Part shown: in pieces, positions 7,865-62,994 of the stretch
Layout: each line of letters begins with the position of its first letter
Numbering within the stretch: position 1 is the stretch's first letter
NCBI RefSeq assembly: GCF_013201705.1
Contig: NZ_CP053838.1
Span: 62,001 to 126,000 of the forward strand
Reading direction: 5' to 3'
Source of the DNA: Aliarcobacter faecis
Lineage (GTDB): Bacteria; Campylobacterota; Campylobacteria; Campylobacterales; Arcobacteraceae
Length of the DNA: 64,000 nt
Position numbers and translations under genes: made by a program
Notes under the pieces: model-generated
What the model was told of the DNA's origin: nothing
Database searches by the model: none
What the model saw: only the letters and a program-made list of their open reading frames with translations

Positions 7865-7877
7865 TTTAAATACCTTT

Positions 7878-29289: not shown

Positions 29290-29338
29290 TAATTATCCTA
29301 TTTATTATCTAATATAGTTTTAATTATATCATTAATTT

Positions 29339-29413: not shown

Positions 29414-29429
29414 AATACAAGGAGACAAT

Positions 29430-29711: not shown

Positions 29712-29723
29712 AGGGGAGATAGC

Positions 29724-30002: not shown

Positions 30003-30006
30003 AGTT

Positions 30007-30291: not shown

Positions 30292-30293
30292 AA

Positions 30294-30566: not shown

Positions 30567-30567
30567 A

Positions 30568-33151: not shown

Positions 33152-33157
33152 TTAAAT

Positions 33158-44619: not shown

Positions 44620-44730
44620 TTATTTTAAATTTTTATCTTTTTCATAATCAAATTTGCCAACTGCTAAAATTATTCCAATTACCAACATTGTAAGTAGTAT
44701 AATTGTTACTGTATTAAATTCTAATTGCAT
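44620..44730 (-). CDS. Tiny single-TM peptide (36 aa), end of operon copy 3
   Basis: MQLEFNTVTIILLTMLVIGI, then ILAVGKFDYEKDKNLK: one helix and the GKFDYEKD motif shared with the peptides at 35811 and 41717. It starts one base after the stop of gene D, exactly as the unrelated peptide at 30568 does in the other arm. It lies just outside the identical repeat. Confidence 0.5.
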   Translation of the reverse strand: MQLEFNTVTIILLTMLVIGIILAVGKFDYEKDKNLK

Positions 44731-44731
44731 T

Positions 44732-45004
44732 TTATCGTCCTTTATATGATCTGATTCTTTTAATTTTTAGATATTTTTTATATCTGTTAAACTCTCGTTT
44801 AAATTTATCATTTAAGTCAATTGCTAGAAGTATTAACATCATAAAACAAAATACAAAAGCTATAGCTATTTGTCCATCATTTATTCCAAAATATATATTT
44901 GTTGCAATATAGATAGCTAAAATATAAATATATAATTTAAATGAATTTGCAAAATTATATAAACAAATAAATAAAAATTTATCTAATCTATTTATTGGTA
45001 ACAT
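44732..45004 (-). CDS. Small membrane protein D, copy 3
   Basis: 90 residues, identical in protein sequence to the gene at 30294-30566. The arms first differ in its penultimate codon (AGA against CGA, both Arg). Two helices, NDG turn and RYKKYLKIKRIR tail. Last of the four repeated genes. Confidence 0.65.
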   Translation of the reverse strand: MLPINRLDKFLFICLYNFANSFKLYIYILAIYIATNIYFGINDGQIAIAFVFCFMMLILLAIDLNDKFKREFNRYKKYLKIKRIRSYKGR

Positions 45005-45006
45005 TT

Positions 45007-45291
45007 TTAATCCTTTATTTCACATTTTGTAACTGGTATAGTAGTTGAGCCTTTAAAAAAACTATTTTTATCTACACTCCAATTATCAGCTTTTGAGACA
45101 TCAATCTTTAAAGAACTCATATTACAAATAAGCTCTTTATTGTTATTAAAATCATCTATTAAATTAGCTCTTTCATTTAGATGAAAATATAAAACTATAA
45201 ATGGAAATAAGAATATAACTAATAGTATAAAAAATTGTGTTCTTATTTTTTCTGATAGATATTCATATTTTTTTAATCTCTTTTCATTCAT
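45007..45291 (-). CDS. Small membrane protein C, copy 3
   Basis: 94 residues, identical to 30007-30291. One helix and an outer domain with the ELIC/VSK/KCEI cysteine pattern shared with protein A. It lies 2 bases from gene D. Confidence 0.65.
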   Translation of the reverse strand: MNEKRLKKYEYLSEKIRTQFFILLVIFLFPFIVLYFHLNERANLIDDFNNNKELICNMSSLKIDVSKADNWSVDKNSFFKGSTTIPVTKCEIKD

Positions 45292-45295
45292 AACT

Positions 45296-45574
45296 CTATT
45301 CTTCTTTCTTAGATTTATTTTCTTTACTATTTGATTTTAAAAAACTATCTGGACTCTTATGAACAATTTTTACTGCAGAAGTTAGTAATACAGCCCAAAA
45401 TGCAATATATAAGAGTCCATTATTAAAATCAAAATATTCATATTCATTATTAAAGAAAAGTGCATAAACCATAACAAATAAAAGTGAACCTACTAAAACT
45501 AAAATAGATATTACAAAAAGAAATTCTCCAAGTCTACAAATAGTTTTATTACCTATTTTATAAAAATTACACAT
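45296..45574 (-). CDS. Small membrane protein B, copy 3
   Basis: 92 residues, identical to 29724-30002. Two helices and a SNSKENKSKKEE tail. Here, unlike at 36646, it is intact, which supports the idea that B is a functional part of the set. Confidence 0.65.
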   Translation of the reverse strand: MCNFYKIGNKTICRLGEFLFVISILVLVGSLLFVMVYALFFNNEYEYFDFNNGLLYIAFWAVLLTSAVKIVHKSPDSFLKSNSKENKSKKEE

Positions 45575-45586
45575 GCTATCTCCCCT

Positions 45587-45868
45587 TTATTTAATATCAC
45601 AATTATAGATTGTAAATATATTTACACCATTAGATATTTGATAAGCTCTTTTTTTATCAAATTCATAAGCTAAATCTTTTGAAACAATATTGTTCTTACA
45701 TATTAATTCTTGATTATTTACAAAAGCTTCATAAATTTTCTCTTTTTTATAATTATTATAAAAATATAAAAAAGCTATAAGTAGTAATAGTAATGCGCCA
45801 AGTCCTAAACTTCCTAAATATGAGAAAAATAGTTCTTTCTCTTTTTTACAAGTAATATCTTGTTCCAT
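45587..45868 (-). CDS. Small membrane protein A, copy 3
   Basis: 93 residues, identical to 29430-29711, and first gene of the operon. The promoter (TTGACA-17-TATAAT) and both ATCTATTTTAGAT palindromes are also duplicated here. They face the divergent HTH gene at 46009, which is the complete arrangement of regulator, operators and operon. Confidence 0.7.
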   Translation of the reverse strand: MEQDITCKKEKELFFSYLGSLGLGALLLLLIAFLYFYNNYKKEKIYEAFVNNQELICKNNIVSKDLAYEFDKKRAYQISNGVNIFTIYNCDIK

Positions 45869-46008
45869 ATTGTCTCCTTGTATTATCTAAAATAGATATT
45901 ATTTAATTTATTATATACTAAAAAGGATATTGTGTCAAGAAATATAATCTAAAATAGATAAATTAATGATATAATTAAAACTATATTAGATAATAAATAG
46001 GATAATTT

Positions 46009-46227
46009 ATGACAAAAGAAGAGTTTTGTAAAAGATTAAAAGATATTAATCTAACACAAAAAGAGTTTTCAGAAATAACCAATGTCCCATATTCAACACT
46101 TAATAATTGGGGATTCCATGATATACAAGTTCCAAAATGGGTAGGTCCATTTATTGAACATTATGAGAAATCTAAAAAGTATGATTCAATTAGAAAGTTA
46201 ATATTAGAGTCTAAAGAGATATTGTAG
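46009..46227 (+). CDS. Small HTH regulator of the small-membrane operon (72 aa)
   Basis: A homologue of the 35904-36176 regulator: TKEEFCKRLKDINLTQKEFS, then EITNVPYSTLNNWG, then a VPKWVGPFIEHY helix. It is a Cro/C1-like helix-turn-helix and divergent from gene A at 45868. It probably acts on the ATCTATTTTAGAT palindromes, and in trans on the identical promoter at 29339. Confidence 0.75.
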   Translation: MTKEEFCKRLKDINLTQKEFSEITNVPYSTLNNWGFHDIQVPKWVGPFIEHYEKSKKYDSIRKLILESKEIL

Positions 46228-46951: not shown

Positions 46952-47375
46952 TTTTCAGGTCTCCTTCAATTTTGTTCCAAATTTTACATATATAAGATTG
47001 CTCTACTTTAAAACCAAATTTTTCGTACAGATTTTTAGCTATTATTCTAAAACTTAATTTTTTCTCCAATTTAGATTTCCTAATATATGACCAACGTTCC
47101 ATTAGCATTCTCTCTACATTACCTTGCCGAATAAAACACTCTTCTGTAGGAATTAATTTAATGTACTCTCTAATTGCAATCACTAGAGAGCATTGAGATA
47201 GTGTCTCATTGCTATAGTCTTTATGTAATTCTTTTAATTTATGAAAATGCGTTCTTTGCATTTTAAACATCTCATTTCTTGCATCAATATCAAAATTAGC
47301 AAAATCTTTAAAAGCTTTTTTGATCCCCTTTACATTTAGTTTTGTGAGTGTTTCACAAATTTTTACATTGTCCAT
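46932..47375 (-). CDS. Unknown protein (147 aa), possible DNA-binding
   Basis: The start at 47375 is chosen because AGGATAAAA precedes that ATG. A longer frame to 47444 exists but lacks a ribosome site. The C-terminal LSFRIIAKNLYEKFGF, EQSYICKIWNKI could be a helix-turn-helix, which is a guess. It is basic throughout. Confidence 0.5.
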   Translation of the reverse strand: MDNVKICETLTKLNVKGIKKAFKDFANFDIDARNEMFKMQRTHFHKLKELHKDYSNETLSQCSLVIAIREYIKLIPTEECFIRQGNVERMLMERWSYIRKSKLEKKLSFRIIAKNLYEKFGFKVEQSYICKIWNKIEGDLKNGKKNS

Positions 47376-47505
47376 TTTTATCCTTTGATATAATTTTAGA
47401 TATATTTGTTTTTTATTAAAAAATATATCTCTACTTATATTCATAATTTTTCAATTTTTAGAAATTATGAATATAGATTACAAAATAAAAAAGGAGTATT
47501 TTAAA

Positions 47506-47718
47506 ATGCAAGTTCAAAATGAAAAAGAGTTAATTCAAATTCCAATAGATATTTTTTATGATGAGTTTACAGTTTATGAAAGTAATGAAAGAGTTGCGTT
47601 TGAAAATTTTAGTGAAAACAAAAGATATATAATTGAATATCAAGACAATGATAATGTTTATGTATATAAACCAACAATGCAGGATTTAATAAAAATAATG
47701 GAAGGAAATTTTAAATAA
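47506..47718 (+). CDS. Small unknown protein upstream of hsdR (70 aa)
   Basis: ATG 47506 is chosen because AAGGAG lies 9 bases before it. An in-frame ATG at 47467 lacks such a site. Acidic (DIFYDEFTVYESNERVAF, IIEYQDNDNVYVY), probably mostly beta. It lies 88 bases before hsdR on the same strand. Acidic DNA-mimic or regulatory roles are imaginable but unsupported. Confidence 0.5.
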   Translation: MQVQNEKELIQIPIDIFYDEFTVYESNERVAFENFSENKRYIIEYQDNDNVYVYKPTMQDLIKIMEGNFK

Positions 47719-47806
47719 TAAAATATAAATGTTTAAATATCTGATTTTTTATTAACATTTAGATAATATCTAATATATTTTTAAAAATAGAGTCTTAGGG
47801 GAAAAT

Positions 47807-50188
47807 ATGTCATCAAAAAAAGAGTTAACAGAAAGAGATATTTGTACAAAATATATCAATCCTGCTTTAACCCAAGCTGGCTGGAATTTACAAACACAAA
47901 TTAGAGAAGAAGTTTATTTTACTGATGGAAAAATTTATGTAAAAGGAAATAAATCAAAAAGAGCTAAGGGTAAAAAGGCAGATTATATTCTTTACTACAA
48001 ACCAAATATTCCTGTAGCAATTATAGAGGCAAAAGATAATAATCATAGAGTTCAAGATGGAATCCAACAAGGCTTAGAATATGCAAATATTTTAGATATA
48101 CCAGTCGTCTTTTCAAGTAATGGAGATGAATTTTATGAACATGATAAAACTTTATCTAATGGTATTGTAGAACGAAAAATCTCATTAAATAATTTTCCAA
48201 CCCCAGATGAACTTTGGGAAAGATATAAAAAATATAAAAAAATAGAGACACAAGAAGAGGAAAGAATTATTTCTCAAGACTATTTTTTCGATGCTCAAGG
48301 AAGATTTCCTAGATACTATCAACAAATTGCAATAAACAGAACTGTTGAAGCAATTGCTAAAGGACAAAATAGAATACTACTTGTAATGGCAACAGGAACA
48401 GGTAAAACATATACAGCTTTTCAGATTATTCATAGACTTTGGAAAAGTGGTGCAAAAAAAAGAATTTTATTTTTAGCAGATAGAAATGCTTTAATCGATC
48501 AAACAAAAAAAGGTGATTTTAGACACTTCAAAGACAAGATGACGGTTATTAGAAAAAAACATATAGATAAATCGTATGAAATATATTTAGCTCTTTATCA
48601 AGGACTTACAAATTACGATGAGGATAAAGATGCATATAAAGAGTTTAGCTCTGATTTTTTTGATTTAATTGTAATAGATGAGGCTCATAGAGGAAGTGCA
48701 TCAGAAGATAGTTCTTGGAGAGAGATACTTGATTATTTTTCAAGTGCTACTCAAATAGGACTTACTGCTACACCAAAAGAGACAAAAACTATTTCAAATA
48801 TCGAGTATTTTGGAGAATCTGTTTATACTTATACTCTTAAAGAAGGAATTGATGATGGATTTTTGGCTCCATACAAAGTATTGAGAGTTGGATTAAATGT
48901 TGATTTGGAAGATTATGAACCTGAAATTGGTAAAAAAGATAAAGATGGAAATGAAATAGAGCAAAGAATATACAATAGAAAAGATTTTGATAGAAGTTTA
49001 GTAATAGATGAACGAACTTATATGGTAGCACAAAGAGTTACGGAATTTTTAAAAGCTACTGATAGATTTAGTAAAACTATTATCTTTTGTACAGATATAG
49101 ACCATGCAAGTAGAATGCGAAGTGCTATAGCAAATTTAAATAGTGATCTTGTTGCTAAAAATTCAAAATATGTAATGCAAATAACTGGAGATAATGATGA
49201 AGGGAAGAGAGAATTAGATAATTTTATAAACCCTCAAGAAACATATCCAGTAATTGCTACAACTTCTAAATTAATGACAACAGGAGTAGATGCTCAAACT
49301 TGTAAATTAATAGTTCTTGATAGCAATATAGGTTCTATGACAGAATTTAAGCAGATAATTGGTCGAGGAACTAGAATAAACGAAGAGTATGGTAAAACAT
49401 TTTTTACAATAATGGATTTTAGAGGAGCAACTGATAAATTTGCTGATCCTGACTTTGATGGTGAATCTGTAATGATAAAAGATATTTTTGATGGGGATGA
49501 AATTTTAAATCCAGAAGAAGAAAAGATTGATTCAATAATTGATGAAAATGGTGAAGAAATAATATTTGAACCTTTTAATATTCCAGATGCTGGAGAAATA
49601 GAAGATATTGAAAAGAAAAAAAGAGAAAAAGTATATATTAATGGTGTAGATGTAACTATCCTGAATGAAAGAGTACAAATAAGAAATTCTGAAGGAAAAT
49701 TAATTACAACTAGCTACAAAGAGTACTCAAAACAAAAAGTTCATGAAGAATTTTCTTCACTTGATGATTTTTTAAACAGATGGTCAAGCAGTGAAAAGAA
49801 ACAAGTTATTATTGATGAGCTTTATGAAAAAGATATTTTATTTGAAGAGTTAAAGGTTGATATAGGCAAAGATATGGATATTTTTGATTTAATTTGTCAT
49901 ATTGCTTATGATAAACCACCACTAACTAGAAAAGAAAGAGCAAATAGTGTTCAAAAAAGAGACTATTTTAACAAATATGAAGGAAAAGCAAAAGAAATTT
50001 TGAAAGCTTTATTAGAGAAATACTCAGATGAAGGAATAGAAACTATTGAAACTATAGAGGTATTAAAACTTCCAGAATTTAGCTCTTTTGGAACAGCAAT
50101 TGAAATAGTTAATACTTTTGGTGGTAGAGATAAATATTTAGAAGCTATAAAAGATTTAGAAAATGAGATATATAAGGGAGTTGCTTAA
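47807..50188 (+). CDS. hsdR: Type I restriction enzyme, R subunit
   Basis: 793 residues. An N-terminal PD-(D/E)xK nuclease (KADYILYY, AIIEAKD) precedes a superfamily 2 translocase with Walker A MATGTGKTYT, VIDEAHRGS, LTATPKET, TTGVDAQTCKLIVLD and IGRGTRI, then an EcoEI-type C-terminal domain. It cleaves unmodified DNA after translocation, in complex with HsdM and HsdS. GGGGA precedes the start. hsdM follows after 3 bases. Confidence 0.95.
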   Translation: MSSKKELTERDICTKYINPALTQAGWNLQTQIREEVYFTDGKIYVKGNKSKRAKGKKADYILYYKPNIPVAIIEAKDNNHRVQDGIQQGLEYANILDIPVVFSSNGDEFYEHDKTLSNGIVERKISLNNFPTPDELWERYKKYKKIETQEEERIISQDYFFDAQGRFPRYYQQIAINRTVEAIAKGQNRILLVMATGTGKTYTAFQIIHRLWKSGAKKRILFLADRNALIDQTKKGDFRHFKDKMTVIRKKHIDKSYEIYLALYQGLTNYDEDKDAYKEFSSDFFDLIVIDEAHRGSASEDSSWREILDYFSSATQIGLTATPKETKTISNIEYFGESVYTYTLKEGIDDGFLAPYKVLRVGLNVDLEDYEPEIGKKDKDGNEIEQRIYNRKDFDRSLVIDERTYMVAQRVTEFLKATDRFSKTIIFCTDIDHASRMRSAIANLNSDLVAKNSKYVMQITGDNDEGKRELDNFINPQETYPVIATTSKLMTTGVDAQTCKLIVLDSNIGSMTEFKQIIGRGTRINEEYGKTFFTIMDFRGATDKFADPDFDGESVMIKDIFDGDEILNPEEEKIDSIIDENGEEIIFEPFNIPDAGEIEDIEKKKREKVYINGVDVTILNERVQIRNSEGKLITTSYKEYSKQKVHEEFSSLDDFLNRWSSSEKKQVIIDELYEKDILFEELKVDIGKDMDIFDLICHIAYDKPPLTRKERANSVQKRDYFNKYEGKAKEILKALLEKYSDEGIETIETIEVLKLPEFSSFGTAIEIVNTFGGRDKYLEAIKDLENEIYKGVA

Positions 50189-50191
50189 TAT

Positions 50192-51625
50192 ATGAGCCAT
50201 AATATAAGTGGAGTTATAAAATCTATTCAAAAGATCATGAGAAATGATAGAGGATTAAATGGAGATGCTCAAAGAATAGAGCAATTAGGATGGATGATAT
50301 TTTTAAAGATTTTTGATGATAAAGATTTAGAAATAGAGTTAATAAAAGATGATTACATATCACCAATTCCTAGTAATTTACAATGGCGAAATTGGGCTAA
50401 AGATGATGAAGGAATTACAGGAGATGAACTTTTAGATTTTATTGATAATAAACTTTTTACAACTTTAAAAAATCTTCCGACTGCAGCAACAAATAAAAGA
50501 GCTTTACTTATAAGAGAAGTATTTGAAGGTAATAACAATTATATGAAGTCTGGAACTATTATAAGGCAAGTTTTAAATAAAATAAATGAAATAGATTTTA
50601 ATAATAGTGAAGATAGGCACCTTTTTGGAGATATTTATGAAACTATTTTAAAAGAGCTTCAAAGTGCTGGAAATAGTGGAGAATTTTATACTCCAAGAGC
50701 AATAACTCAATTTATAACTCAAATGATAGATCCAAAATTAAATGAAATTACTTTAGATCCTGCTTGTGGAACTGGTGGATTTTTAGTGAATACTATAGAT
50801 CATATAAAATCAAATGGGGAAGTTAAAACTCCAGAAGATAGATTAACATTACAGCAAAATATTAGAGGAGTAGAGTTAAAACCACTTCCTCATATGTTAG
50901 CACTTACAAATCTAATTTTACATGATATAGAAATTCCAAATATTATATATGATGATGCACTTTCAAAAGAGATTTCAAGCATATCAAAAAAAGATAAAGT
51001 TGATTGTATTTTGGCAAATCCCCCTTTTGGTGGAGTTGTAACCGATGGTATGGAGACAAATTTTCCTGCAAACTTTAGAACTAAAGAGAGTGCTGATCTA
51101 TTTTTAATTCTTATGATAAATTACCTAAAAGATGGTGGAAGAGCTGGAATAGTACTTCCAGATGGAAGCCTTACTGGTGATGGAGTAAAACAAAGAATTA
51201 GAGAAAAGCTACTGGCTGATTGTAGCCTTCATACAATTGTACGACTTCCAAACTCAGTATTTCAACCCTATGCTTCAGTGGCTACAAATCTTCTGTTTTT
51301 TACAAAAGGAACTCCAACAAAAGAGATTTGGTATTATGAACATAAATTACCAGAGGGGCAAAAAGCATATAGTAAAACAAAACCTATAAAGCTTGAAGAG
51401 TTTGAACTTCTTAAATTATGGTGGAATAATAGAATTGAAAATGAGCAAGCTTGGAAAGTAAATATTGAAACTATCAAAACAAATGGATACAATCTTGATA
51501 TTAAAAATCCTCACAAAGAGGAAGTAGAACACACTTACTCATCATCTGAACTTCTTGAGATGTTATCAAGCTCTTTTGCAAAAAGTAATACACTTTTAGA
51601 AAAGTTAAAAAGTGAGCTTTCATGA
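50192..51625 (+). CDS. hsdM: Type I modification methyltransferase, M subunit
   Basis: 477 residues. An N-terminal HsdM_N helical domain (RNDRGLNGDAQRIEQLGWM) precedes an adenine-N6 methyltransferase with SAM motif LDPACGTGGFL and catalytic NPPFGG. It forms the modification core with HsdS. It overlaps the next gene by 4 bases (ATGA). Confidence 0.95.
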   Translation: MSHNISGVIKSIQKIMRNDRGLNGDAQRIEQLGWMIFLKIFDDKDLEIELIKDDYISPIPSNLQWRNWAKDDEGITGDELLDFIDNKLFTTLKNLPTAATNKRALLIREVFEGNNNYMKSGTIIRQVLNKINEIDFNNSEDRHLFGDIYETILKELQSAGNSGEFYTPRAITQFITQMIDPKLNEITLDPACGTGGFLVNTIDHIKSNGEVKTPEDRLTLQQNIRGVELKPLPHMLALTNLILHDIEIPNIIYDDALSKEISSISKKDKVDCILANPPFGGVVTDGMETNFPANFRTKESADLFLILMINYLKDGGRAGIVLPDGSLTGDGVKQRIREKLLADCSLHTIVRLPNSVFQPYASVATNLLFFTKGTPTKEIWYYEHKLPEGQKAYSKTKPIKLEEFELLKLWWNNRIENEQAWKVNIETIKTNGYNLDIKNPHKEEVEHTYSSSELLEMLSSSFAKSNTLLEKLKSELS

Positions 51626-53088
51626 TAGTAAGAAGCACAGACTATATCAAATCTCTTGTAAATGAGATTATAAAACTTCCTAATGAAACTGAATGGATAG
51701 AGTTCAAACACAACAACGAAGATCCTCAAATGATAGGCGAATACATTAGTGCTCTTTCAAACTCAGCTGCACTCAATGGTAAAACAAATGGCTATATTAT
51801 TTGGGGTGTAGATGATACTACTCATGAGATTTTAGGTACGACTTTTACTCCATCATCTGCAAAGAAAGGTGGAGAAGCACTAGAAAACTGGATATTACGA
51901 CTTCTTGAACCAAAAATTGATTTCAAATTTTATGAAATAGAAATAGATGAAAAAAGTATCGTTTTACTTGAAATAGCACCTGCATATAGACACCCAGTGA
52001 CATTTTCAGGTACAGAATATATAAGACTCGGCTCTCACAAAAAAAAGCTTAAAGAGTTAGCAGAAAAAGAGAGAGAACTTTGGAGGATATTTGACAAAGT
52101 ACCTTTTGAGAAACAAATTGCAGTAGATAACATAGATGCTAGTGAAGTACTAGGATATCTTGAATATACTAAATATTTTGAGCTATTAAACATACCGTTA
52201 CCAGAAAATAGAAATGCTATCTTAGAAGCACTTATAGCTGATAATATGGTCAATAAACTTGATAATGCAAAATATGCCATCACAAACTTAGGAGCTATTC
52301 TTTTTGCAAAAGATTTATCAAAGTTTAATAACCTCAAAAGAAAAGCCATAAGGGTTATCCAATACAAAGATAATACAAAATTTCAAACTACAAAAGAGAT
52401 AGTTGGCAATAAAGGTTATGCTGTTGGATTTGAAGGACTTATAGAATACATCAACAATATGCTTCCATCAAACGAAGTAATAAAACAAGCATTTCGTGAA
52501 AACAAAACAATGTATCCAGAACTCTCAATAAGAGAGGTCGTTGCAAATGCTATTATCCATCAAGATTTCTTTGCTACTGGAAGCTCAGTGATGATAGAAA
52601 TTTTTTCAAACCGTTTTGAAGTAACAAATCCAGGAACTCCTCTTGTAGATACTGAAAGATTTTTGGACTCTCCGCCAAAATCAAGAAATGAAGCAATCGC
52701 ATCATTTATGCGAAGAATCGGTATTTGTGAAGAGCGAGGAAGTGGTGTAGATAAGATAGTAATCCAAACAGAACTTTATCAGCTTCCTGCACCGATATTT
52801 GAAACAAATGGTGATCATACAGTAGCGATACTTTTTGCACATAAAGAGCTAAAAGATATGGACAAAGCAGATAAAATCAGAGCTTGTTATTTGCATGCAA
52901 GCTTAAGATATATCCAACATGACTATATGACAAACACATCTCTTAGAGAGAGATTTAACATTGATGTCAAAAATCGTTCAATGGTTTCAAAAATCATCAA
53001 TGATGCAATTGAAGCGAACAAAATAGCTATCTATGATGAAAATGTAGGAACAAAAGCAAGAACTTATATACCAAGTTGGGCAAGATGA
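51622..53088 (+). CDS. AlbA_2/Schlafen-like putative DNA- or RNA-binding protein inside the hsd operon
   Basis: 488 residues. The N-terminal AlbA_2 (Schlafen AlbA) domain reads ETEWIEFKHNNEDP and GKTNGYIIWGVDD. A GHKL/ATPase-like C-terminal half contains REVVANAIIHQDF, RFEVTNPG and RGSGVDKIV, as in COG2865 regulators. Such genes are often found between hsdM and hsdS; their role is unclear (regulation, or protection against RNA attack). Start and stop are coupled to hsdM. Confidence 0.85.
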   Translation: MIVRSTDYIKSLVNEIIKLPNETEWIEFKHNNEDPQMIGEYISALSNSAALNGKTNGYIIWGVDDTTHEILGTTFTPSSAKKGGEALENWILRLLEPKIDFKFYEIEIDEKSIVLLEIAPAYRHPVTFSGTEYIRLGSHKKKLKELAEKERELWRIFDKVPFEKQIAVDNIDASEVLGYLEYTKYFELLNIPLPENRNAILEALIADNMVNKLDNAKYAITNLGAILFAKDLSKFNNLKRKAIRVIQYKDNTKFQTTKEIVGNKGYAVGFEGLIEYINNMLPSNEVIKQAFRENKTMYPELSIREVVANAIIHQDFFATGSSVMIEIFSNRFEVTNPGTPLVDTERFLDSPPKSRNEAIASFMRRIGICEERGSGVDKIVIQTELYQLPAPIFETNGDHTVAILFAHKELKDMDKADKIRACYLHASLRYIQHDYMTNTSLRERFNIDVKNRSMVSKIINDAIEANKIAIYDENVGTKARTYIPSWAR

Positions 53089-53091
53089 TGA

Positions 53092-53205
53092 AAATTTGCT
53101 TCACCGTTGCTTCACTGAATACTTATAATAGACTTAAAAATATTGGAGAAACCCTTTATTATAGGGCTTTCCCTTCTCAAAATTTGTTTGACCGTTGTTT
53201 GACTG
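53092..53205. repeat. Pair of 24-base near-repeats flanking a hairpin between the AlbA gene and hsdS
   Basis: AATTTGCTTCACCGTTGCTT... (53092) and AATTTGTTTGACCGTTGTTT... (about 53180) differ mainly by C/T and C/G swaps. Each is itself an imperfect double of TTCACCG/TTCACTG type. Between them, AAACCC and GGGCTTT (53149-53170) form a stem. It may be a regulatory or recombination-prone spacer. Confidence 0.45.
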
Positions 53206-53217
53206 ATGGGGAAATAT

Positions 53218-54534
53218 ATGAGTAATTGGCAAAAAGTAACCCTTGATAAATTATGTTTTTTTGAAAAGGGTAAGACAGGATTGGCAAAAGCTATACCAGG
53301 TGATTATCCTTTAGTAACAACTTCAGCAGAAAGAAAAACAAATGATTCTTACCAGTTTGATACAAAAGCCGTTTGTATTCCATTAGTTTCATCAACTGGA
53401 CATGGTCATGCAAGTTTAAACTATGTACATTATCAAGAAGGAAAATTTGCTCTTGGAACAATATTAGTAGCCTTAATTCCAAAAGATGAAACAATCTTAA
53501 ATGCTCAATTTTTGCATTTATATCTATCAAGATTAAAAGATATAATTTTAGTGCCATTAATGTCTGGAGCTGCAAATGTATCTTTATCTATATCAAAAAT
53601 CAAAACAGTTGAAATACCTTTACCACCTATAGATGAACAACTAAAAATTGTTGAACTATTTAAAAACTTAGTGAATGAAAACAATGAATTAGTAGAAGAA
53701 ATCAATACACAATCATCTCTTTTAAAACAACTAAAACAAACTATTTTACAAGAAGCGATTGAAGGTAAACTCACAGAAAAATGGAGAGTTAAAAATCCTG
53801 ATATCGGCACAGTCAAAGAACTTTTAGAGCAGATAAAAACAGAAAAAGAGAAACTTGTAAAAGATAAAAAAATTAAACCATCCAAACCACTGGCACCAAT
53901 AAATGAAGATGAAATTCCATTTGATATTCCACAAAACTGGGAATGGTGTAGGTTTCAAGATATTACAACTGTAATTACATGTGGAATAGCAAGTACTCCA
54001 ACATATTATGAAAGTGGAAGAATTTTCTTATCTGCTAAAAATGTTAAACCTTTTAAATTTATGCCTGATGAACATAAATATATTAATGAAGATACATATC
54101 AAAAAATTATTGCAAATGCTAAACCTGATTTGAATGATATTTTACTTACCAGAGTTGGTGCAGGTATAGGAGAAGCAGCAGTAATTGATCAAGAAATTGA
54201 TTTTGCTTATTATGTTAGTTTGACACTGATCAAACCATTACATTTATACATTAATTCTAAATTTATTTTGAATTTTCTTAATTCTGAACAAGGGATTAAA
54301 AATGCAATTAGTTATACATCTGGTAAAGATAGCTCTCAAGGTAATTTAAATGTTAATAATGTTAGAACATTCTTAATTCCAATTCCACCCCTTGAAGAAC
54401 AAAAAGAGATAGTAGCCACAATAGAAAAACTTTTTGCGATTTGCGATGAACTTGAGGGCGAAATCAACCAAAACAAAACCACAGTTGACAACCTAATGGC
54501 AACAGTCCTTAAAGAGGCGTTTGAACAACAATGA
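53218..54534 (+). CDS. hsdS: Type I specificity subunit
   Basis: 438 residues from ATG 53218, preceded by GGGGA; ATG 53206, four codons earlier, is the alternative. Two target recognition domains (about 1-140 and 215-390), each followed by a conserved helical spacer (PLPPIDEQLKIVELF, PIPPLEEQKEIVATIEKL), set the recognised DNA half-sites. Full length and intact. The DUF4297 gene follows after only 11 bases. Confidence 0.93.
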   Translation: MSNWQKVTLDKLCFFEKGKTGLAKAIPGDYPLVTTSAERKTNDSYQFDTKAVCIPLVSSTGHGHASLNYVHYQEGKFALGTILVALIPKDETILNAQFLHLYLSRLKDIILVPLMSGAANVSLSISKIKTVEIPLPPIDEQLKIVELFKNLVNENNELVEEINTQSSLLKQLKQTILQEAIEGKLTEKWRVKNPDIGTVKELLEQIKTEKEKLVKDKKIKPSKPLAPINEDEIPFDIPQNWEWCRFQDITTVITCGIASTPTYYESGRIFLSAKNVKPFKFMPDEHKYINEDTYQKIIANAKPDLNDILLTRVGAGIGEAAVIDQEIDFAYYVSLTLIKPLHLYINSKFILNFLNSEQGIKNAISYTSGKDSSQGNLNVNNVRTFLIPIPPLEEQKEIVATIEKLFAICDELEGEINQNKTTVDNLMATVLKEAFEQQ

Positions 54535-54545
54535 AAAGGTAAAAT

Positions 54546-55613
54546 ATGGCAAATTCTAATCCTTTATACACTCCTCAACGAGAAAAAGCTGGTGCCCAAA
54601 CATTTGGTAAATACATGTATCAATATCATTGGGCATTATATAGAATCTTTAAGGAGCATGAGTCAGAAAAAGAATATGCTGTATTTATTGAGCTTCACGA
54701 AGATGTTGTATTGGCTGATTCATTAGAAGTTGCTCAAGTAAAATTTGAATTTAATCAAGTAAAAACTACAACTGGAAAATATACTGATAAAAAATTAATT
54801 AAACAAGATCCAAAAACAAAAAGCTCAACTTTAGGGAAGTTAATTTCAAGTGGTACAAATCCAGCTTATTTTGACAAAGTTGATTCAATCAATCTTGTTG
54901 CAAGCAATGGATTTAGTATTCCACTAAAAACAAAAGGAATCGATTTACAAAATATATCTATAAATTACATTTCAGATGATTGTTTAAAATCAATGTCAGA
55001 TGCTATCACAAAGGAATTATCATCTAATAGTTTTCCGATAAATCTACATTTCATAGTACCTGATTTACCAGAGAAATCATTTGAACAAACTATTATAGGA
55101 CATATCACAGAGGTTATTTTGAAGCTTTATCCTGGTGCAACAATTAATGCACAAAATATTTATAGAGCATTGATAGATGAATTAACTCGTAAAGGTAGAT
55201 TAACTTTCGATTTTACAAATTGGGATAAGTTTATAAAAGAAAAAGCATTGACCTCATTGACAGTGACACAAGTAATAAACGAACACACAAATAGAAAGCA
55301 AGATATTAAAGTTTATGAAGAGCTAGATATTTTTATGAATGATCTGGGATTAAAGTCATTAGAAAAAAGAAATTGGAAAAAATCTTTTGAAAGATATTAT
55401 CTTCAAAGAGTTGGTAACAAGGCTACAAACCAATTTGATATTAGTAGTGACATAAAAACAACTATTTCAAAATATTTACCAAATAGTAATGACGATATTA
55501 CTCTTTTATTGTCGCAAGCGATAGATAGTTTATCCGAAAAGACAAAAAAGAAATTTGACAATGATATGGATATAAAATGTGCGATTTTATGTGAACTCAT
55601 ACTTGAGGATTAA
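54546..55613 (+). CDS. DUF4297-type (Cap4-like) dsDNA nuclease effector
   Basis: 355 residues. The N-terminal nuclease domain shows the DUF4297 pattern: QRKAGAQTFGKY-like QREKAGAQTFGKYMYQYHWA, then FIELHEDVV and FNQVKTT, giving E49, D53 and Q71-x-K73 as likely metal and catalytic residues. The C-terminal 200 residues are helical and probably bind partners. DUF4297 nucleases are effectors of CBASS, HerA and ABC-three-component systems. Here the ATPase gene 57 bases downstream suggests the last. It follows hsdS by 11 bases and may be co-transcribed. Confidence 0.75.
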   Translation: MANSNPLYTPQREKAGAQTFGKYMYQYHWALYRIFKEHESEKEYAVFIELHEDVVLADSLEVAQVKFEFNQVKTTTGKYTDKKLIKQDPKTKSSTLGKLISSGTNPAYFDKVDSINLVASNGFSIPLKTKGIDLQNISINYISDDCLKSMSDAITKELSSNSFPINLHFIVPDLPEKSFEQTIIGHITEVILKLYPGATINAQNIYRALIDELTRKGRLTFDFTNWDKFIKEKALTSLTVTQVINEHTNRKQDIKVYEELDIFMNDLGLKSLEKRNWKKSFERYYLQRVGNKATNQFDISSDIKTTISKYLPNSNDDITLLLSQAIDSLSEKTKKKFDNDMDIKCAILCELILED

Positions 55614-55670
55614 ATATGAATAAACAAGATAACTACAAACTTTTGATAAGAAATTTGAGGAAAAAATACA

Positions 55671-57383
55671 ATGAAAAACTTACAATTCAAACAACTGCTT
55701 CTACTATCAGATACACAAAAAAAAGCAAATCAATTCCTGTTTCAAAAGAGATTCAATCTAATAACAGCTGACGATAATAGTGTTGGAAAATCTACATTAG
55801 CAAAACTTTTGCTTTGGACTTTTGGATGTGAACCTGATTTTGATTCAACTTGGAAAAGTACAGATTGTAAATGTTTAGTTGATTTTTCAATAGATGGTAC
55901 GAACTATAAAATTTTACGATATCAGAATTTCATTTCTTTAAAAGAAGAAAATCAAGAAATCCTCAAATATACTAATATCGGTGGAGATTATTCAAAAAAG
56001 TTCGCTGAACTAGTTGACTTTAAAGTATTATTGCCGAAACGAGGAAGTGATGAAACAGAACTTGTTACACCTCCACCAGCATATTATTTTTTACCATTTT
56101 ATATGGATCAAAAAAATAGCTGGAGTAAAACATGGAATAGCTTTGGTAAATTAGGTCAATTTGACAGCTGGCAAAAAACTGTAATCAAATATCATTTAGG
56201 ATATTTAAGTCCTAAGCACTTTGAGCTTGAACAAGATTTATCAGATAATAAAAGACAAATAAATGAATTAAATCAAGAAGTTGAAAAAATTGGATATGCA
56301 TTGGATGTAGTAAAAAATCATATTCCAAATAACGAAATCACTATTAATGAAGAACAATTCCAAATAATTACAAAAGAGATTCAAGAAGAATTAGCTGAAT
56401 TATCAAAATTACAAGAACAATTTTTAAATGAACTATCAAATCTCACATCTGATAAAGTTTATTTAGAACATCAAAAAACTATTGCTGAACATCTTATCAA
56501 AGAGCTAGAAAGTGATTATGTTTTTAGCGTAGAAAACATAGAAGACGATGATATTGAATGTCCATTATGTGGGACAATTCATGAAAATTCAATAGTAAAT
56601 AGAAGCTCTATCTTGGTAGATAAACAACAAGCTGTTAATCAACTTCATTCTATTGATACTCAACTCCAAAATCTTGTTAAAAAAGCAGAAAAAACTCAAA
56701 AAGAATACGAGCAAATCAAAGAAAAAATCAATCATATTAATGCAAAATATAAATTAGAAGATAATTCACAATCAATTCCACTAAATGAAGTTATTGAGAA
56801 ATTTGCATATAAATCTATAAATGACAATATAACCAATACAAAAAAAGAGAAACTTTTAAAAATTGATGATTATAAGAACGGGCAAAAAGAGATTAAAAAA
56901 GAACAAAATGCTTTGTTAACTAAAGAAGAAAGACAAAAACTTGATGATGCTTTTTTAGAGTTACTTCATACTTATATTAAACTACTCAATGCAGAAGGTA
57001 TAAATCTCTCAAGTATAAAAACTCCACTTGATTATAATAAAATCGTTAAAGAAGGTGGAGCAGCAGAAGGCACGAGAGGTATTCTTTCTTACTATTTAGC
57101 AATTTTTTCTATGATTAACATTTATGGTAGTGAAATAAATGCTCCTTTAGTAATAGACACCCCAAATCAACAAGAGCAATCTGATAAAAACTATGAAAAT
57201 ATCGTTAACTTGATAACTCAAAAAATACCTGACACCGAACAAATAATTATTTGTGCAATGGAAAATGATAAATTGAAAGAATATAAAAAAGATGCAAATG
57301 TTATTAAATTGAACAAAGACAAACTTTTACAAGCTTCTAAATATGATGAAGTTAAGCAAATATTTGATGAAATGGAAAAATAA
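55671..57383 (+). CDS. SMC/Rad50-like AAA ATPase with zinc hook (ABC-three-component type)
   Basis: 570 residues. The P-loop at 33-42 reads ADDNSVGKST, with the usual first glycine replaced by aspartate. A coiled coil carries a CPLCGT hook-like motif near residue 297 and a single partner half. The C-terminal ABC half has LVIDTPNQQEQSDKN as Walker B. It is short for SbcC and matches the ATPases of DUF3732-like three-component conflict systems. It has GAGG 10 bases before the start, and its stop overlaps the next start by one base. Confidence 0.75.
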   Translation: MKNLQFKQLLLLSDTQKKANQFLFQKRFNLITADDNSVGKSTLAKLLLWTFGCEPDFDSTWKSTDCKCLVDFSIDGTNYKILRYQNFISLKEENQEILKYTNIGGDYSKKFAELVDFKVLLPKRGSDETELVTPPPAYYFLPFYMDQKNSWSKTWNSFGKLGQFDSWQKTVIKYHLGYLSPKHFELEQDLSDNKRQINELNQEVEKIGYALDVVKNHIPNNEITINEEQFQIITKEIQEELAELSKLQEQFLNELSNLTSDKVYLEHQKTIAEHLIKELESDYVFSVENIEDDDIECPLCGTIHENSIVNRSSILVDKQQAVNQLHSIDTQLQNLVKKAEKTQKEYEQIKEKINHINAKYKLEDNSQSIPLNEVIEKFAYKSINDNITNTKKEKLLKIDDYKNGQKEIKKEQNALLTKEERQKLDDAFLELLHTYIKLLNAEGINLSSIKTPLDYNKIVKEGGAAEGTRGILSYYLAIFSMINIYGSEINAPLVIDTPNQQEQSDKNYENIVNLITQKIPDTEQIIICAMENDKLKEYKKDANVIKLNKDKLLQASKYDEVKQIFDEMEK

Positions 57384-58297
57384 TGAAAATTCCATCAGAC
57401 CTATTCGAAAATAAGCAGTTAAAACTATCTCCACTATTAATAAAATCATATATTGATAAATTAAATGTACTTGGTAAATTTGAAGAGTCAAAAGTAAATT
57501 TGCAAGGTTCAATAGGTGGGAATGAAGAAGATGAAGCAATAAATCATTTTGTAGGAAGATTTCCAAATGGTGCTGTAAGATCACAGTATGTTGTCATAAA
57601 TCCAGATGGAGATTTAAATCATATTGCATCACAATTAGCTACTGTATTTTCAGATAAAACCTTAAAGATATTATATTTGCCGTGCGGAAGCGGTGCAGGA
57701 TTGGTTGGTTTACTTACTACTTTTTTTACATTAAGACAACACAAGTATTATCCGTCTTTGCCATTAAATATTGAAATTATAGGTGCTGATTATTCAAGTG
57801 ATGCTTTAAGTATTTTTACTGAAATGATGAATTCAATATCAAAAGAGTTTTTGAAAGTTGGGATTAATATATCATACTCAACACAACAGTGGGATGCCAC
57901 AAGTAACACTGAGACAATGAAATTAATGCATCAATTTTTTGCTACACAAGCAGATGAACATTTTGTATTTTTTTCTAATTTTTCAGGTGCTACAGGTACG
58001 AATAATAATTTTAATGATTCATTCCGCACTGTTTTGGACTATGTTGCTACTATCGGAAAAAATTCTACTATTTTGTGGATAGAACCTGGAAATTTTAAAA
58101 AAGCAGAAAGGTTATTTGTAAAAATTGGAATGTTAATCGATTCAATCAAAAAACTTTGGGCACAATTTACTGATTCAAATAGCGATGCATGTGAAATTTC
58201 AACAAGAGAATTTAAATTTATTCATCCAACTTCTTTAAATGAACTACGAGGAAATATATCTGGATTAAGATTAATTATAGACGGGCAAGATAGATGA
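57383..58297 (+). CDS. SAM-methyltransferase-like protein paired with a reverse transcriptase
   Basis: 304 residues. Rossmann-type motif I is ILYLPCGSGAGLVGLL (96-111), followed by EIIGADYSSDAL with an acidic residue for ribose binding, and STQQWDAT as a motif III-like turn. Motif IV (VFFSNFSG) lacks an NPPY-type catalytic set, so it may be a non-DNA methyltransferase or only a ligand-binding fold. It starts on the last base of the ATPase stop (TAATG) and overlaps the reverse transcriptase start by 4 bases (ATGA), which is tight coupling. I do not know a named family. Confidence 0.65.
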   Translation: MKIPSDLFENKQLKLSPLLIKSYIDKLNVLGKFEESKVNLQGSIGGNEEDEAINHFVGRFPNGAVRSQYVVINPDGDLNHIASQLATVFSDKTLKILYLPCGSGAGLVGLLTTFFTLRQHKYYPSLPLNIEIIGADYSSDALSIFTEMMNSISKEFLKVGINISYSTQQWDATSNTETMKLMHQFFATQADEHFVFFSNFSGATGTNNNFNDSFRTVLDYVATIGKNSTILWIEPGNFKKAERLFVKIGMLIDSIKKLWAQFTDSNSDACEISTREFKFIHPTSLNELRGNISGLRLIIDGQDR

Positions 58298-60027
58298 TAG
58301 ATATAAAGAAAATAGCACTTAGAGCCATTAATTCAAGCAGACGAACTTCTCCATCTACATATATAGCTCTTAGGTTATTACTTGATAATCAACACAACTT
58401 AAAATGGCTACAAAACTATTGTGAACGAAAACTAACTACAACATCAAAATGGTCTTATTTTGAATATCAATGGTTTAAAAAGATTGATGAAAAAGATAAG
58501 CCAAATCATCGTACTTTTTATATAGGGAGTCCTACAACTCTACTTGTGGAAGCATATATTTTGTCTATATTATCAAAAGAGGAAATATTTAAAAATAATT
58601 CACAAAATTTTAGCTATTACCTTGCAGAAGATTATGCTAGTTATAATTATTCATACTACTATAAAGGTTATCGCAACAGAAATATTTCTATCTCTAATAA
58701 ATTAACAGAAGACAAAAATCTAAGGGCTTTTGTTTTTGATTTGAGTAATTATTATCCTAGTATGGACAAATCTTTTGTTTATGAAAATTTTTCTAACTAT
58801 ATCGAACAAACTAATATTGATGAAAAAATCAAAAATGGTATTTTAGATTTTATCAAATCATCTCTTGATGTTACAGTATCAGGAATACCTGTAAATCCTG
58901 ATATTGGTCATCTTTTAGGTAGTATCACTTTAAAATCATTTGATAATGAAATGTATGAAATTTTTGGAGATAGATATTTTAGATATGTCGATGATATTGT
59001 AATTATTGACAAGGAAGATAATGTCAAAGATGTAAAAGCTATTTTAGATGAAAAAATACCTAAAAGTAAAGGTGCTATTTTAAATCAAGAAAAATATCAA
59101 GAATTAGATTTAGCAGAATGGAAGATTCTTACTAGCGAAATTGGTCATAATGATGAATTTATTAACTTGCTCAATGACATGCAACTCTACTTATCCATGC
59201 AAGATACTGCATCAGAAATACAAAAACAACTAAAAGACAATAAAATTTCACTTCCTGTTTATAAACTTTACATAAACTCAAGATATGGTGGCTGGCAATC
59301 TTTTGTAAAGTGGCTAAATTATTATAATCCTTTAAAAAGTTATAGAAAATCTTTGACTGTTGAAAAGCTTGTAAATAGAGCTATAAATTTGAAGAAATTT
59401 TATATTGAAAGTTTAAAATCTTTGAATAAAGTTGCTACATCTGAACAAAATGTGAATCAAAAAGTATTGCTTAAAAAGTATCATTTCTATATAAATAGGC
59501 TTATTTATTTATTTGATGTAAGTGAATTTGAGGATAAGCTATTACCTTTAATACCTACGACAAAAGAGTTTTTTGAAACAAAATCTGTCATTGAGGCTTT
59601 AATAATAAATGATATTTCAAATATATTAAGTATTGGTGGTAAATCTATTTTAACATTTGTAGAGATATCTAAAGCAAATTCTTTATCTTTTCCAAAAATT
59701 AACAAAAAATTATTAAAAGCTTATGATAACACACAGCTGTACTCATTAGGTGTATTATCTTTATATGGATTAATTCTATTGAATAAAAGTATAGAAATTG
59801 AACAAATAGAAAACAATCAGATAAAAAACTTTCTCCAATTTTGTGATATACAAGCCCCCATAGAAAGATTATTAAATGATTTCTCTTACAATGATGAAAT
59901 ATTGTCATTAAGATTAAATATATCGCATGAGCATATGCTTAAAAAACTGTTTAGTAAATATGATAGTAAAGAAAAATTGTATTTAGCTGGTTTGACTTTG
60001 GATGAAAAGGATTATTTCTCACTTTAG
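58294..60027 (+). CDS. Reverse transcriptase, defence-associated (unknown-group) type
   Basis: 577 residues. Reverse transcriptase motifs: FDLSNYYPSMD at 148-158 (motif A), SGIPVNPDIGHLLGS at 196-210 (motif B with P instead of QG) and FRYVDDIVI with YVDD at 231-234 (motif C). The remaining 340 residues are helical and unrelated to group II intron maturases. There is no intron structure, msr/msd candidate or thumb-X typical of group II. It resembles the UG/DRT and AbiK-like defence reverse transcriptases, but I cannot place it in a numbered type. Confidence 0.82.
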   Translation: MIDIKKIALRAINSSRRTSPSTYIALRLLLDNQHNLKWLQNYCERKLTTTSKWSYFEYQWFKKIDEKDKPNHRTFYIGSPTTLLVEAYILSILSKEEIFKNNSQNFSYYLAEDYASYNYSYYYKGYRNRNISISNKLTEDKNLRAFVFDLSNYYPSMDKSFVYENFSNYIEQTNIDEKIKNGILDFIKSSLDVTVSGIPVNPDIGHLLGSITLKSFDNEMYEIFGDRYFRYVDDIVIIDKEDNVKDVKAILDEKIPKSKGAILNQEKYQELDLAEWKILTSEIGHNDEFINLLNDMQLYLSMQDTASEIQKQLKDNKISLPVYKLYINSRYGGWQSFVKWLNYYNPLKSYRKSLTVEKLVNRAINLKKFYIESLKSLNKVATSEQNVNQKVLLKKYHFYINRLIYLFDVSEFEDKLLPLIPTTKEFFETKSVIEALIINDISNILSIGGKSILTFVEISKANSLSFPKINKKLLKAYDNTQLYSLGVLSLYGLILLNKSIEIEQIENNQIKNFLQFCDIQAPIERLLNDFSYNDEILSLRLNISHEHMLKKLFSKYDSKEKLYLAGLTLDEKDYFSL

Positions 60028-60371
60028 TCTATAAGTACAAAAAATTATAGAATACCTATTAGTTTAATAAAAAAATAATTATTTTAATTAATATTTATTA
60101 AGTGTAATAAATTTAATATGCTATTACATATTAAACTTTAACTAACATTTTATTAAATATATTTAATTCATTTTCTAAAATATATTTAAGTTCAGTTGTG
60201 TTGGAAATAATTTCAAGAATTGAGGCATTGTCTAATTCATTTATTATCCAAACGATTAACCTATCTTTATCTACATTTTTTAGTTCAAATGAAGCAAACT
60301 TAGCATTTTTGATTTTTAGGGTGTTTTATGTATAATGTATGTTCAGTAAATAGTTAAGAATAGGGAAAATT
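60028..60371. other. Gap after the reverse transcriptase with a possible gene fragment
   Basis: 344 bases, very AT-rich. On the minus strand a frame of about 65 codons ends at 60131 (KNVDKDRLIVWIINELDNAS and NMLVKV-like tail) but has no start, so it may be the end of a lost gene. The left 100 bases could hold a non-coding RNA for the reverse transcriptase, though I see no convincing fold. TATAATG near 60331 probably belongs to the promoter of the HEPN gene. Confidence 0.3.
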
Positions 60372-61190
60372 ATGAGTAAAAGTATAGCTAAAATACATAT
60401 TTTAATGAAAAATTATCGTAAGAAATTACGTCATATTTGGGAAGAGTATTCTTTTATTGAATACTATGCACCATATTTACACGAAAATATTAAAAATGGA
60501 ACTTTGCCACCTTATGAATTTGAACCATTTTTGAACAACAGACAATTAAGAAAAACAACAAAAAGAACTTCATTAAGTGCATTAGATCAAGTTTTAAAAA
60601 ACTCAATCAAAAATAGAGTTTTATTGGATTCTATTGGTATATTTGAGGATTATATATGTAATTTAGCTGAAATTGTTTATACAGATTATCCTGAAAAATT
60701 AAAGAACAATAATAAAGGTCAAACTGAAAAGGAAGAACAAAAATATATAAATTTCATTATGGACTCCGATACAAAAGAAGAAATGATATCAAAAATTATT
60801 GAAGAAAAATTACGCTCTATTTTTTATGGTAATCCATTAGATATTTTCGAAAAAGATAAAGTTCAACTCTCATTTGGAAAATATTTTACTGATAATTATC
60901 AGCATGTTTTAGATGAATATAAAGAAATCACAGCCACTAGAAATGTAATTATTCATAATAATGGTAAAGTAGATAGAAAATATCTTAGAGAAGTAGTTGG
61001 CACTAGTTATAACTTAAGAAATAGAATAATTTTAGAGAGACAATATCTTAAAAAAACTTTATCTATTTTAGAAGGTCTTGCGGCAATCTCTTCAAAACTT
61101 GTAGTGGAAAATATATACAATGGCATTCCTCGAGGTAAATTGGAAAATTCTATTAAAAGCTTTAAAAATGGTGTTGGAAAAACAGTTTAA
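60372..61190 (+). CDS. HEPN-domain protein (RiboL-PSP-like)
   Basis: 272 residues. The HEPN signature R-x4-H is RNVIIH at 190-195, followed by helices (LRNRIILERQYLKKTLSIL). An upstream helical region includes FEDYICNLAEIVYTDYP. HEPN proteins are commonly RNases in toxin or defence settings. AGGGAAAAT precedes the ATG. The order HEPN, then VPA1262-like gene suggests one defence locus. Confidence 0.75.
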   Translation: MSKSIAKIHILMKNYRKKLRHIWEEYSFIEYYAPYLHENIKNGTLPPYEFEPFLNNRQLRKTTKRTSLSALDQVLKNSIKNRVLLDSIGIFEDYICNLAEIVYTDYPEKLKNNNKGQTEKEEQKYINFIMDSDTKEEMISKIIEEKLRSIFYGNPLDIFEKDKVQLSFGKYFTDNYQHVLDEYKEITATRNVIIHNNGKVDRKYLREVVGTSYNLRNRIILERQYLKKTLSILEGLAAISSKLVVENIYNGIPRGKLENSIKSFKNGVGKTV

Positions 61191-61272: not shown

Positions 61273-62994
61273 ATTAGTTCTAAATTAGATTTTTTACTTA
61301 ATCAGGCAAATATTGGAAATTATAATAAGTGTGAAATTATTGAAATCTTTGGTTTTGATAAAGAAAAAAAAGAAGCATTCAATATTTTCACCTTAGTTGT
61401 TTTTGAAAATACAAAACAAGTAGACAAAAAAGAGTTAATGACTAAAAAGCTACAGCCATTTAAAGGTCATAAAAACCTATTTTGGGGTATTCAAAGAAGA
61501 ATTGTTGATATTGAAGTAGCACACAAACTTTATCTTCAACTTCTACAAACCAATCAATTTGAAATAGATGAACCATTAAGCATTGGAGAAGTTCAATTAT
61601 TACAAGAACAATATGTTCTTCCAAGAGAAGATATGCATCATGAAGTACAGTTAAATAATATATTGAAAAATAACTTCAAGAATGGGTCATATATTTTAGA
61701 GTTCTTTGATGAAGTAAAAAATAAGGTTCAATTTTTATTAGATAATCCACCTTTATTGAATCAGTTTAGTGAAGAAATCAGTAGTATATTGCCTATTAAA
61801 GTAGGGACTGTATCGGATAGATTAGGAAATATTATTTTTCAATTTCCAATAAATAATTTTGAACTATATCACGACAGGATAACAGTCAAAAACAAACAAT
61901 GGGTTCAAAAATATCAAGGGATTAAACTTGCAATTATCTCAAAATCAAAAACTTTTAATATCCAAAACTTAGTAGCTCGATTATATGAAGAAGATACCGA
62001 CAAACTTATTACAAGACAAAGATTCATTAATATTGATAGCACTGTGACAGATATAGCTTTTGATGATTGTTTCGGTACACATATTGAAATAATTGATAAA
62101 ACGACTTCTCTGCTTTTATACAAATATAAATTCTCCATTATCAAACAAATGTATTCCAATATAAGTGTCATAGAACTTCAAAATAGAGTTTTTAAGATTG
62201 ATGGAAATATTCATAAGATTAAGGTATCTACAAATGCAAGTCGCTCTATTTATGGAAAAGAAAAAAATAAGTCTTTTGATGAATGGATTAGAAATAGAAA
62301 ATATGAGCAGGAATTAAAAGAGTTAGAAAAAAGTAAGGCATTTGTTCAATATTTCGGAAATGAAAAAAAGTATATTCTACTTAATAAAATAAAATGGTCA
62401 ATATCAAATAATAAAAATATACTAGATTATAAATCTTATAAAAAACAACAAGGGCTTATTGCATCTAGTATCACAAAAGCTATGAAAGATGTGAGAGAAA
62501 TTATTAATAAACATGGAAATGAAGGAGTTTATCTTTGGGATCCTTATTTAAATGCTAAAGATATTAAAAACACATTGTATTTCTGCCAACATACATATGT
62601 GCCAATGAGAGCAATTACATCATTTAGTGAAATACAATTACAAAGAAATATATCTTGTCCAAAGTGCGGTGAGCCTCTTGAAAGTAAAAATACTACCGAA
62701 AAAGCTAAAACAAATATGACCAAAGAATTAGAATGCGATGATGAAAAATTCCTTTTTATGAATTTAGAAGTGAGAGGAAAAATCAAGCAATATGGTTATA
62801 AATTTCATGATAGGTTTTTAATATTTCCTTTAGAGCAGCCAAAAGTTTGGTCACTTGGTATTTCTGTAAATCAATTAGGTGCATCACATCATATTTTGTA
62901 AGAGGTTAAAAATGCTCAGCACATCTTAAATGCTTTTAATAAGTTGTGGGATGAGTTAAATCATGAGGAGTGTTTAGTGTGGAAGAGCAAATGA
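61273..62994 (+). pseudogene. VPA1262-like protein, damaged at both ends
   Basis: The longest clean frame from an ATG is 61438-62901 (487 aa), but coding similarity extends both ways. Upstream the same frame is open to 61273 (ISSKLDFLLNQANIGNYNKC) with AAAGGAAG at 61260-61267 and an ATG at 61268 that is out of frame by one base, suggesting a deletion after the start. At the other end, TAA at 62899-62901 interrupts SHHIL-EVKNAQHILNAFNKL, which runs on to TGA 62992-62994. The body has a zinc-ribbon CPKCGEPL and a PLD-like HDRFLIFP. VPA1262 proteins occur in defence-type loci; function is unclear. Confidence 0.6.

Follow-up and report, generated by a model that had tools for sequence, protein, structure and literature searches.

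Two stacked gene pairs, Lamassu-type LmuAB and a methyltransferase-like protein with a UG36 reverse transcriptase, as the probable content of a packed locus in Aliarcobacter faecis

The DNA analysed here (the window) is a stretch of 64,000 nucleotides from Aliarcobacter faecis of the family Arcobacteraceae, namely bases 62001-126000 of a 140,289-bp contig (NZ_CP053838.1) in a 2.45-Mb genome of two contigs. This contig is probably a plasmid, as suggested by the Rep_3 initiator and the DnaB-type gene that it carries. At positions 54546-60027 of the window, four genes follow each other on the + strand: a nuclease gene (54546-55613, 355 aa), a gene of an SMC-like ATPase (55671-57383, 570 aa), a gene of a methyltransferase-like protein, MT (57383-58297, 304 aa), and a reverse transcriptase (RT) gene (58294-60027, 577 aa). 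Their distances are +57, -1 and -4 bp, and these Open Reading Frame (ORF) coordinates agree with the packed same-strand arrangement described in an earlier reading of the DNA from its letters alone (the sequence-only reading). We read the four genes as two stacked modules, LmuAB and MT-UG36, and not as one four-gene system, with a probability of about 0.9.

By profile matches, the first two genes are a two-gene Lamassu with a Cap4 nuclease, which is a known kind. The protein of gene 1, a LmuA-like Cap4/DUF4297 nuclease, matches the PADLOC LmuA model (PDLC00240, 1.5e-130) over nearly its full length as well as Pfam Cap4_nuclease (9.3e-52), and carries E49, D53 and the QVK motif twice in residues 64-73. 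The protein of gene 2, a LmuB-like ATPase of the SMC/Rad50 type, matches the LmuB model over its full length (PDLC00257, 2.8e-232), with a degenerate P-loop (DDNSVGKST, residues 34-42), a CPLC hook (297-300) and a Walker B-like Asp followed by Thr (VIDTP, 494-498). Thus the nuclease and ATPase pair of the ABC-three-component kind proposed in the sequence-only reading is borne out by these profile matches, and the motifs named there, including YVDD of the RT, were all located at the residues checked. The pair resembles Lamassu and ABC-three-component systems in both profile matches and in the CPLC hook, and its gene order is that of four plasmid LmuA-LmuB loci. It differs in that the 57-bp interval holds no LmuC gene, in its position in a type I restriction-modification (RM) slot, and in the unrelated MT-RT pair behind it. 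Some Lamassu systems are described as lacking LmuC in a part of PMC10586767. LmuB would sense aberrant DNA structures and then release the LmuA nuclease, aborting infection.

At a threshold of 1e-5, LmuB relatives were found in 30 plasmid records (20 from Klebsiella) and 13 phage records (12 from Klebsiella), with identities of at most 43% among the matches listed; none was confirmed by the scan of viral contigs. Four of the 30 plasmid loci were viewed, and in all four a nuclease gene directly precedes the LmuB gene, while no MT or RT is annotated nearby in their incomplete gene table. The plasmid and phage collections contain no match to the window RT at 1e-5, and hence none of these 43 records does. 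At 1e-20, LmuB was found in only one of 104 family genomes, namely the window's own.

The last gene encodes a UG36 reverse transcriptase. Residues 5-573 match the PADLOC RT_UG36 model (PDLC03775) at 2.1e-119, versus 2.2e-14 for the next-best model, UG17, so the RT that had been called a UG type or defence-associated reverse transcriptase (DRT) falls in a named group. To our knowledge, UG36 has not been given a DRT number. The window MT matches positions 74-164 of the 938-position PADLOC RT_UG35 model (6.1e-9).

MT and RT were followed through several searches. The RT protein matched four of 100 relatives, two of them weakly (L003 and L004, which were set aside), and the RT alignment at 1e-30 matched four of 397 phylum genomes. 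An MT alignment matched four of 348 genomes of the order, and one of six rows matched five of 104 genomes of the family, each match with an RT adjoining; a scan of genome contigs gave three loci. The UG36 model matched nine of 298 genomes, two of them at full length (the window genome and G294); seven partial matches (L007-L013) were set aside as other RTs after short stretches had been read. The UG35 model matched 37 of 397 genomes, of which one (G503), matched in both parts, was followed up. In total, seven distinct loci carry the pair: the window; L018, from Arcobacteraceae isolate STC_79 (the same place as G494); L019/L014, from Arcobacter vandammei (G012); L020/L048, from a Campylobacterales metagenome-assembled genome (G453); L015 (G294); L069 (G503); and L077 (G490).

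RT follows immediately after MT in each of the seven loci, at distances of -4, -4, -4, -8, -8, +1 and +4 bp, where the start was chosen by the analyst if several were possible. All seven RTs match the UG36 profile at full length (best 2e-162) and keep D149, D233, D234 and the YFRYVDD block (residues 228-234 in the window), and for each of the seven MTs the match to RT_UG35 lies in the N-terminal part of that model (best 2.3e-13). The MT and RT trees built with FastTree agree in topology, with support of 0.95-1.0, and the pairwise identities of the two proteins correlate (Spearman 0.71 over 21 pairs, which are not independent). Matches to LmuA or LmuB beside MT-RT were found in the window only (1 of 7 loci); the neighbours were compared by BLAST with the window proteins for L018, L019, L020, L048 and L077, and by eye from ORF lists for L015 and L069. 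No type I RM locus lies beside MT-RT in the fetched stretches of L015, L020, L069 and L077, whose neighbours, judged by eye, resemble household genes; also by eye, there are toxin-antitoxin-like genes close to L020 and one transposase-like gene close to L069. By its distribution, MT-UG36 is a conserved two-gene module that is probably self-standing. PADLOC supplies the RT model, and the constant MT partner of the UG36 RT is an observation of the present analysis.

Outside these loci, 18 RT relatives in viral contigs match around the catalytic core only (profile positions about 124-350), and no MT was found among the ORFs of at least 80 aa at these 18 loci. They were read as other RT groups. 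MT relatives in viral contigs were not confirmed by scan. In plasmids, the MT of L015 gave no match and its RT gave six weak ones, three of which are annotated drt3a.

The packed run of the window begins upstream of gene 1. It includes HsdR (47807-50188) and HsdM (50192-51625) of a type I RM system, an AlbA_2/HATPase protein (51622-53088) and HsdS (53206-54534), all on the + strand, with Pfam, PADLOC and NCBIfam matches, which we treat as context outside both modules. The gaps are 3 bp between HsdR and HsdM, -4 bp between HsdM and the AlbA_2 protein, 117 bp between the latter and HsdS, and 11 bp between HsdS and gene 1. The whole run therefore comprises eight genes (47807-60027, + strand), of which the sequence-only reading had left out the upstream four. 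When 47300-60600 was scanned for terminator patterns, one terminator-like site came up, on the - strand, against a mean of 3.3 in shuffles, which is no proof of a single transcript.

A comparison by blastn with the sister locus L018 locates the LmuAB genes in an exchanged cassette (54538-57373, + strand), which has no match in L018 while both flanks match. Window 51694-53954 is 94.7% identical to L018; hsdS differs in its second part, its 3' end (54373-54537) is 90.9% identical, and the MT-RT stretch (57374-60026) is 96.1% identical. In the place of LmuAB, L018 carries Olokun (OloA, 1.5e-52; OloB, 7.8e-149) and a gene of 292 aa that overlaps MT by 4 bp. Since the flanking DNA is kept while the gene sets differ, the borders of the cassette lie at the end of hsdS and at the start of MT. 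The genome of L018 (G494) was labelled in the sequence search as a different genus from the window genome, and from the 96% DNA identity of MT-RT across genera we infer a recent transfer of the pair. The 292-aa gene of L018 (6215-7093), between Olokun and MT, matches nothing in PADLOC or Pfam.

HsdM relatives at 1e-100 were found in eight of 104 family genomes, at nine places. Seven of these are readable; those left out are in G025 (L087, where the contig ends inside hsdS) and G037 (at a contig edge), and in L090 and L091 the slot was counted after an hsdM-hsdS fusion. The content of the slot differs: LmuAB directly after hsdS in the window; Olokun with the 292-aa gene in L018; a pair of 280 and 302 aa (the former listed as 316 aa) without PADLOC match in L019; Kiwa in L088 (KwaA, 1.8e-43; KwaB, 7.4e-68); unknown proteins of 282, 145 and 202 aa in L089, the first two of which were covered by the PADLOC scan; a PtuA-like ATPase (4e-54) with proteins of 470 and 1230 aa in L090; and, in L091, a 631-aa protein that by eye is like the L090 ATPase, with relatives of the L019 pair. 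MT-RT follows the slot in three of the seven readable loci; L088-L091 gave no match to either MT or RT. As judged from these gene contents, the region behind hsdS is a variable cassette slot. Measured from the hsdS stop, the next gene begins at about -17 to +63 bp in all seven loci, so tight packing is general there.

The two-gene cassette shared by L019 (5325-7081) and L091 (6969-8739), with identities of 60% and 51%, stands behind type I RM genes once with MT-RT and once without, has no PADLOC match, and is a candidate new defence pair. Extra ORFs inside type I RM loci have a parallel in the same bacterial order, namely rlo/mlo of Campylobacter jejuni, as described in parts of PMC5183652 and PMC4619093, which cite Miller 2005. 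The Arcobacteraceae loci differ from it in that recognised whole defence systems stand behind hsdS.

The two-module reading is preferred because MT and RT adjoin in every locus and LmuAB stands beside them once, because LmuAB was exchanged as a block for Olokun plus one gene with both flanks kept, and because other complete systems occupy the same slot. It is also favoured by the shared topology of the MT and RT trees, by the lack of a match to the window RT in the 43 LmuB records, and by the constant matches of MT to the N-terminal part of UG35 and of RT to UG36. The sequence-only reading had bound MT and RT to the nuclease-ATPase pair, with two juxtaposed systems as its alternative, and had proposed to count how often the four genes occur together. 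They do so in one of the seven MT-RT loci. The coupling of MT to RT held in all seven, whereas the tie of both to LmuAB fails in six, and the alternative of two systems is the one that agrees with the exchange in L018. One four-gene system, in which nuclease, SMC-like ATPase, MT and RT act together, would fit the single strand and the overlaps of 1 and 4 bp; however, genes that follow hsdS in this family are commonly packed like this, and with LmuAB missing from most MT-RT loci and replaced as a block in L018, we consider it very improbable.

Hardly more probable is a functional link of the two modules in this strain, in which the DNA product of the RT would act as a ligand of the LmuB sensor, arming or tuning it. 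PMC10586767 presents LmuB-type proteins as presumed sensors of DNA structures, and LmuB overlaps MT by 1 bp, but no second locus holds both modules and L018 has nearly the same MT-RT with Olokun. Several points weigh against the two-module reading. Expression is probably linked in this strain by the LmuB-MT overlap. MT-RT was found in seven loci, all in Campylobacterota, the only phylum reached, and three of them stand behind the same type I RM locus, so that a functional tie to RM is possible. LmuB in a single family genome makes a test from the Lamassu side impossible within the family, and the 43 plasmid and phage LmuB records are mostly near-copies from Klebsiella.

The methyltransferase-like label of the window MT is weak and draws on sub-threshold matches of its relatives and on conserved motif positions. 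The MTs of L015 and L020 (2 of 7 members) match Methyltransf_31/25 and CheR below the cut-off and mad2 weakly (best 0.00024), and one further member matches MTase_II at 0.0032. G102, G104 and D136 are invariant in the seven members, and MT keeps IEP at 233-235. These conserved residues resemble an S-adenosylmethionine (SAM) site; the window protein itself has no Pfam methyltransferase match, and no useful PDB match was found for MT. That MT is inactive as an enzyme and serves the RT as a folded scaffold or as a regulator would suit this missing Pfam match and the Tyr in place of the motif I acid in the window, L018 and L019, but the three invariant residues and the matches of L015 and L020 speak against it, and we regard it as rather unlikely.

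MT as the missing LmuC was rejected, since MT occurs without LmuB in six of seven loci and an RT stands beside every match of the MT alignment searches. MT as a protective DNA methylase is unlikely but possible: no motif IV of DNA-adenine methylases was recognised in it, but weak matches to DNA-methylase profiles occur in three of seven members.

For the RT, the next-best profiles include UG17 (DRT10) and Drt3a, and its best PDB match is Drt3a (3.7e-11). The parts of PMC12632851 and PMC13174585 concerned assign UG17 and UG3 (DRT3a) to class 2, of which those members that have been studied use a non-coding RNA (ncRNA) in cis; class 1 and DRT1/DRT5 are described in part of PMC13275509 as making protein-primed DNA without a template. 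These matches suggest that the RT may use an RNA template, as class 2 DRTs do, and not work untemplated; this RNA would lie within coding sequence or be encoded at another place. Against it, no flank conserved across the seven loci was found that could hold a class 2 DRT ncRNA, synonymous changes reveal no obvious cold spot (at such divergence the test is weak), and the sole Rfam match, far below the cut-off, lies in hsdS. We see it as a possibility of less than even weight. Upstream of MT lies coding sequence in the three RM-linked loci. The shared flank stretches longer than 28 nt are 110 bp upstream in L015 and L020 and 182 bp downstream in the window and L019; matches below that length, at E 0.007-0.1, are probably due to chance. 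The downstream stretch (window 60129-60310) shares 90% identity with the final part of an L019 gene of 245 aa, which is not intact in the window.

Compared with known groups, the window RT cross-matches DRT10 (UG17) and DRT3 (UG3 plus UG8). DRT10 has a SLATT protein and an ncRNA (PMC12632851, in the part concerned), whereas the window RT has an MT-like partner and no ncRNA was found. The UG35 model holds an MT part and an RT in one, and in G503 the MT matches its positions 22-181 and the RT parts match 423-593, while in the window MT and RT are two overlapping genes and the RT fits UG36 best. Because homologous parts lie in one UG35 model, we propose that MT and RT would form one complex. The UG36 RT would make DNA, probably self-primed, and MT would be its enzymatic partner, an effector or switch whose activity is gated by this DNA synthesis; the role of MT as effector or switch is tentative. 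Somewhat more doubtful is the whole picture of an undescribed DRT type with two proteins, no flanking ncRNA, and a SAM-dependent methyltransferase effector or switch controlled by RT synthesis.

Other features of the window were recorded in passing. A perfect inverted repeat of 1293 nt (29278-30570 and 44728-46020) has its arms 14,157 nt apart, and the segment between them could invert. Defence-like genes on the - strand (1893-8876) include a MkoA-like kinase-helicase (Mokosh, 7.3e-186), a NucC-like nuclease (4.2e-11), HerA (3.3e-245) and SIR2 (1.7e-127). At 8885-13665, a large SMC-like ATPase (weak LmuB match, 9.2e-19) and a 397-aa neighbour look by eye like SbcC/SbcD. An AbiEi/AbiEii pair (2.5e-63, 6.6e-107) adjoins a TOTE-type primase (1.5e-68) and a helicase at 30954-34680. 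A protein with the VPA1262-family N-terminal domain (NF040700, 178.6 bits) lies at 61438-62901, after a 272-aa gene without clear match.

In the DRT literature searched, no description of an MT partner of a UG36 RT was found, although an earlier notice in Mestre et al. 2022 is possible. The main texts of PMC13275509, PMC13174585 and PMC12632851 nowhere contain the word "methyltransferase". Nothing was found in the literature searched on Lamassu joined with a reverse transcriptase and DUF4297, and a search for the UG36 reverse transcriptase gave only works that are, by title, on other subjects.

In summary, LmuAB is of a known kind and the RT belongs to a named group. The constant MT partner, not found in print, would be the new element, and the MT-UG36 pair is a variant of the DRT kind, modest but open to testing. 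The two-module reading guards against testing the four genes together as a false "system". Behind the type I RM genes of Arcobacteraceae, gene overlap is weak evidence of joint function, since defence systems with no relation to each other stand there just as closely packed. MT and the UG36 RT may instead be taken as a small constant unit; with it, the partners of defence reverse transcriptases would come to include a methyltransferase-like protein.

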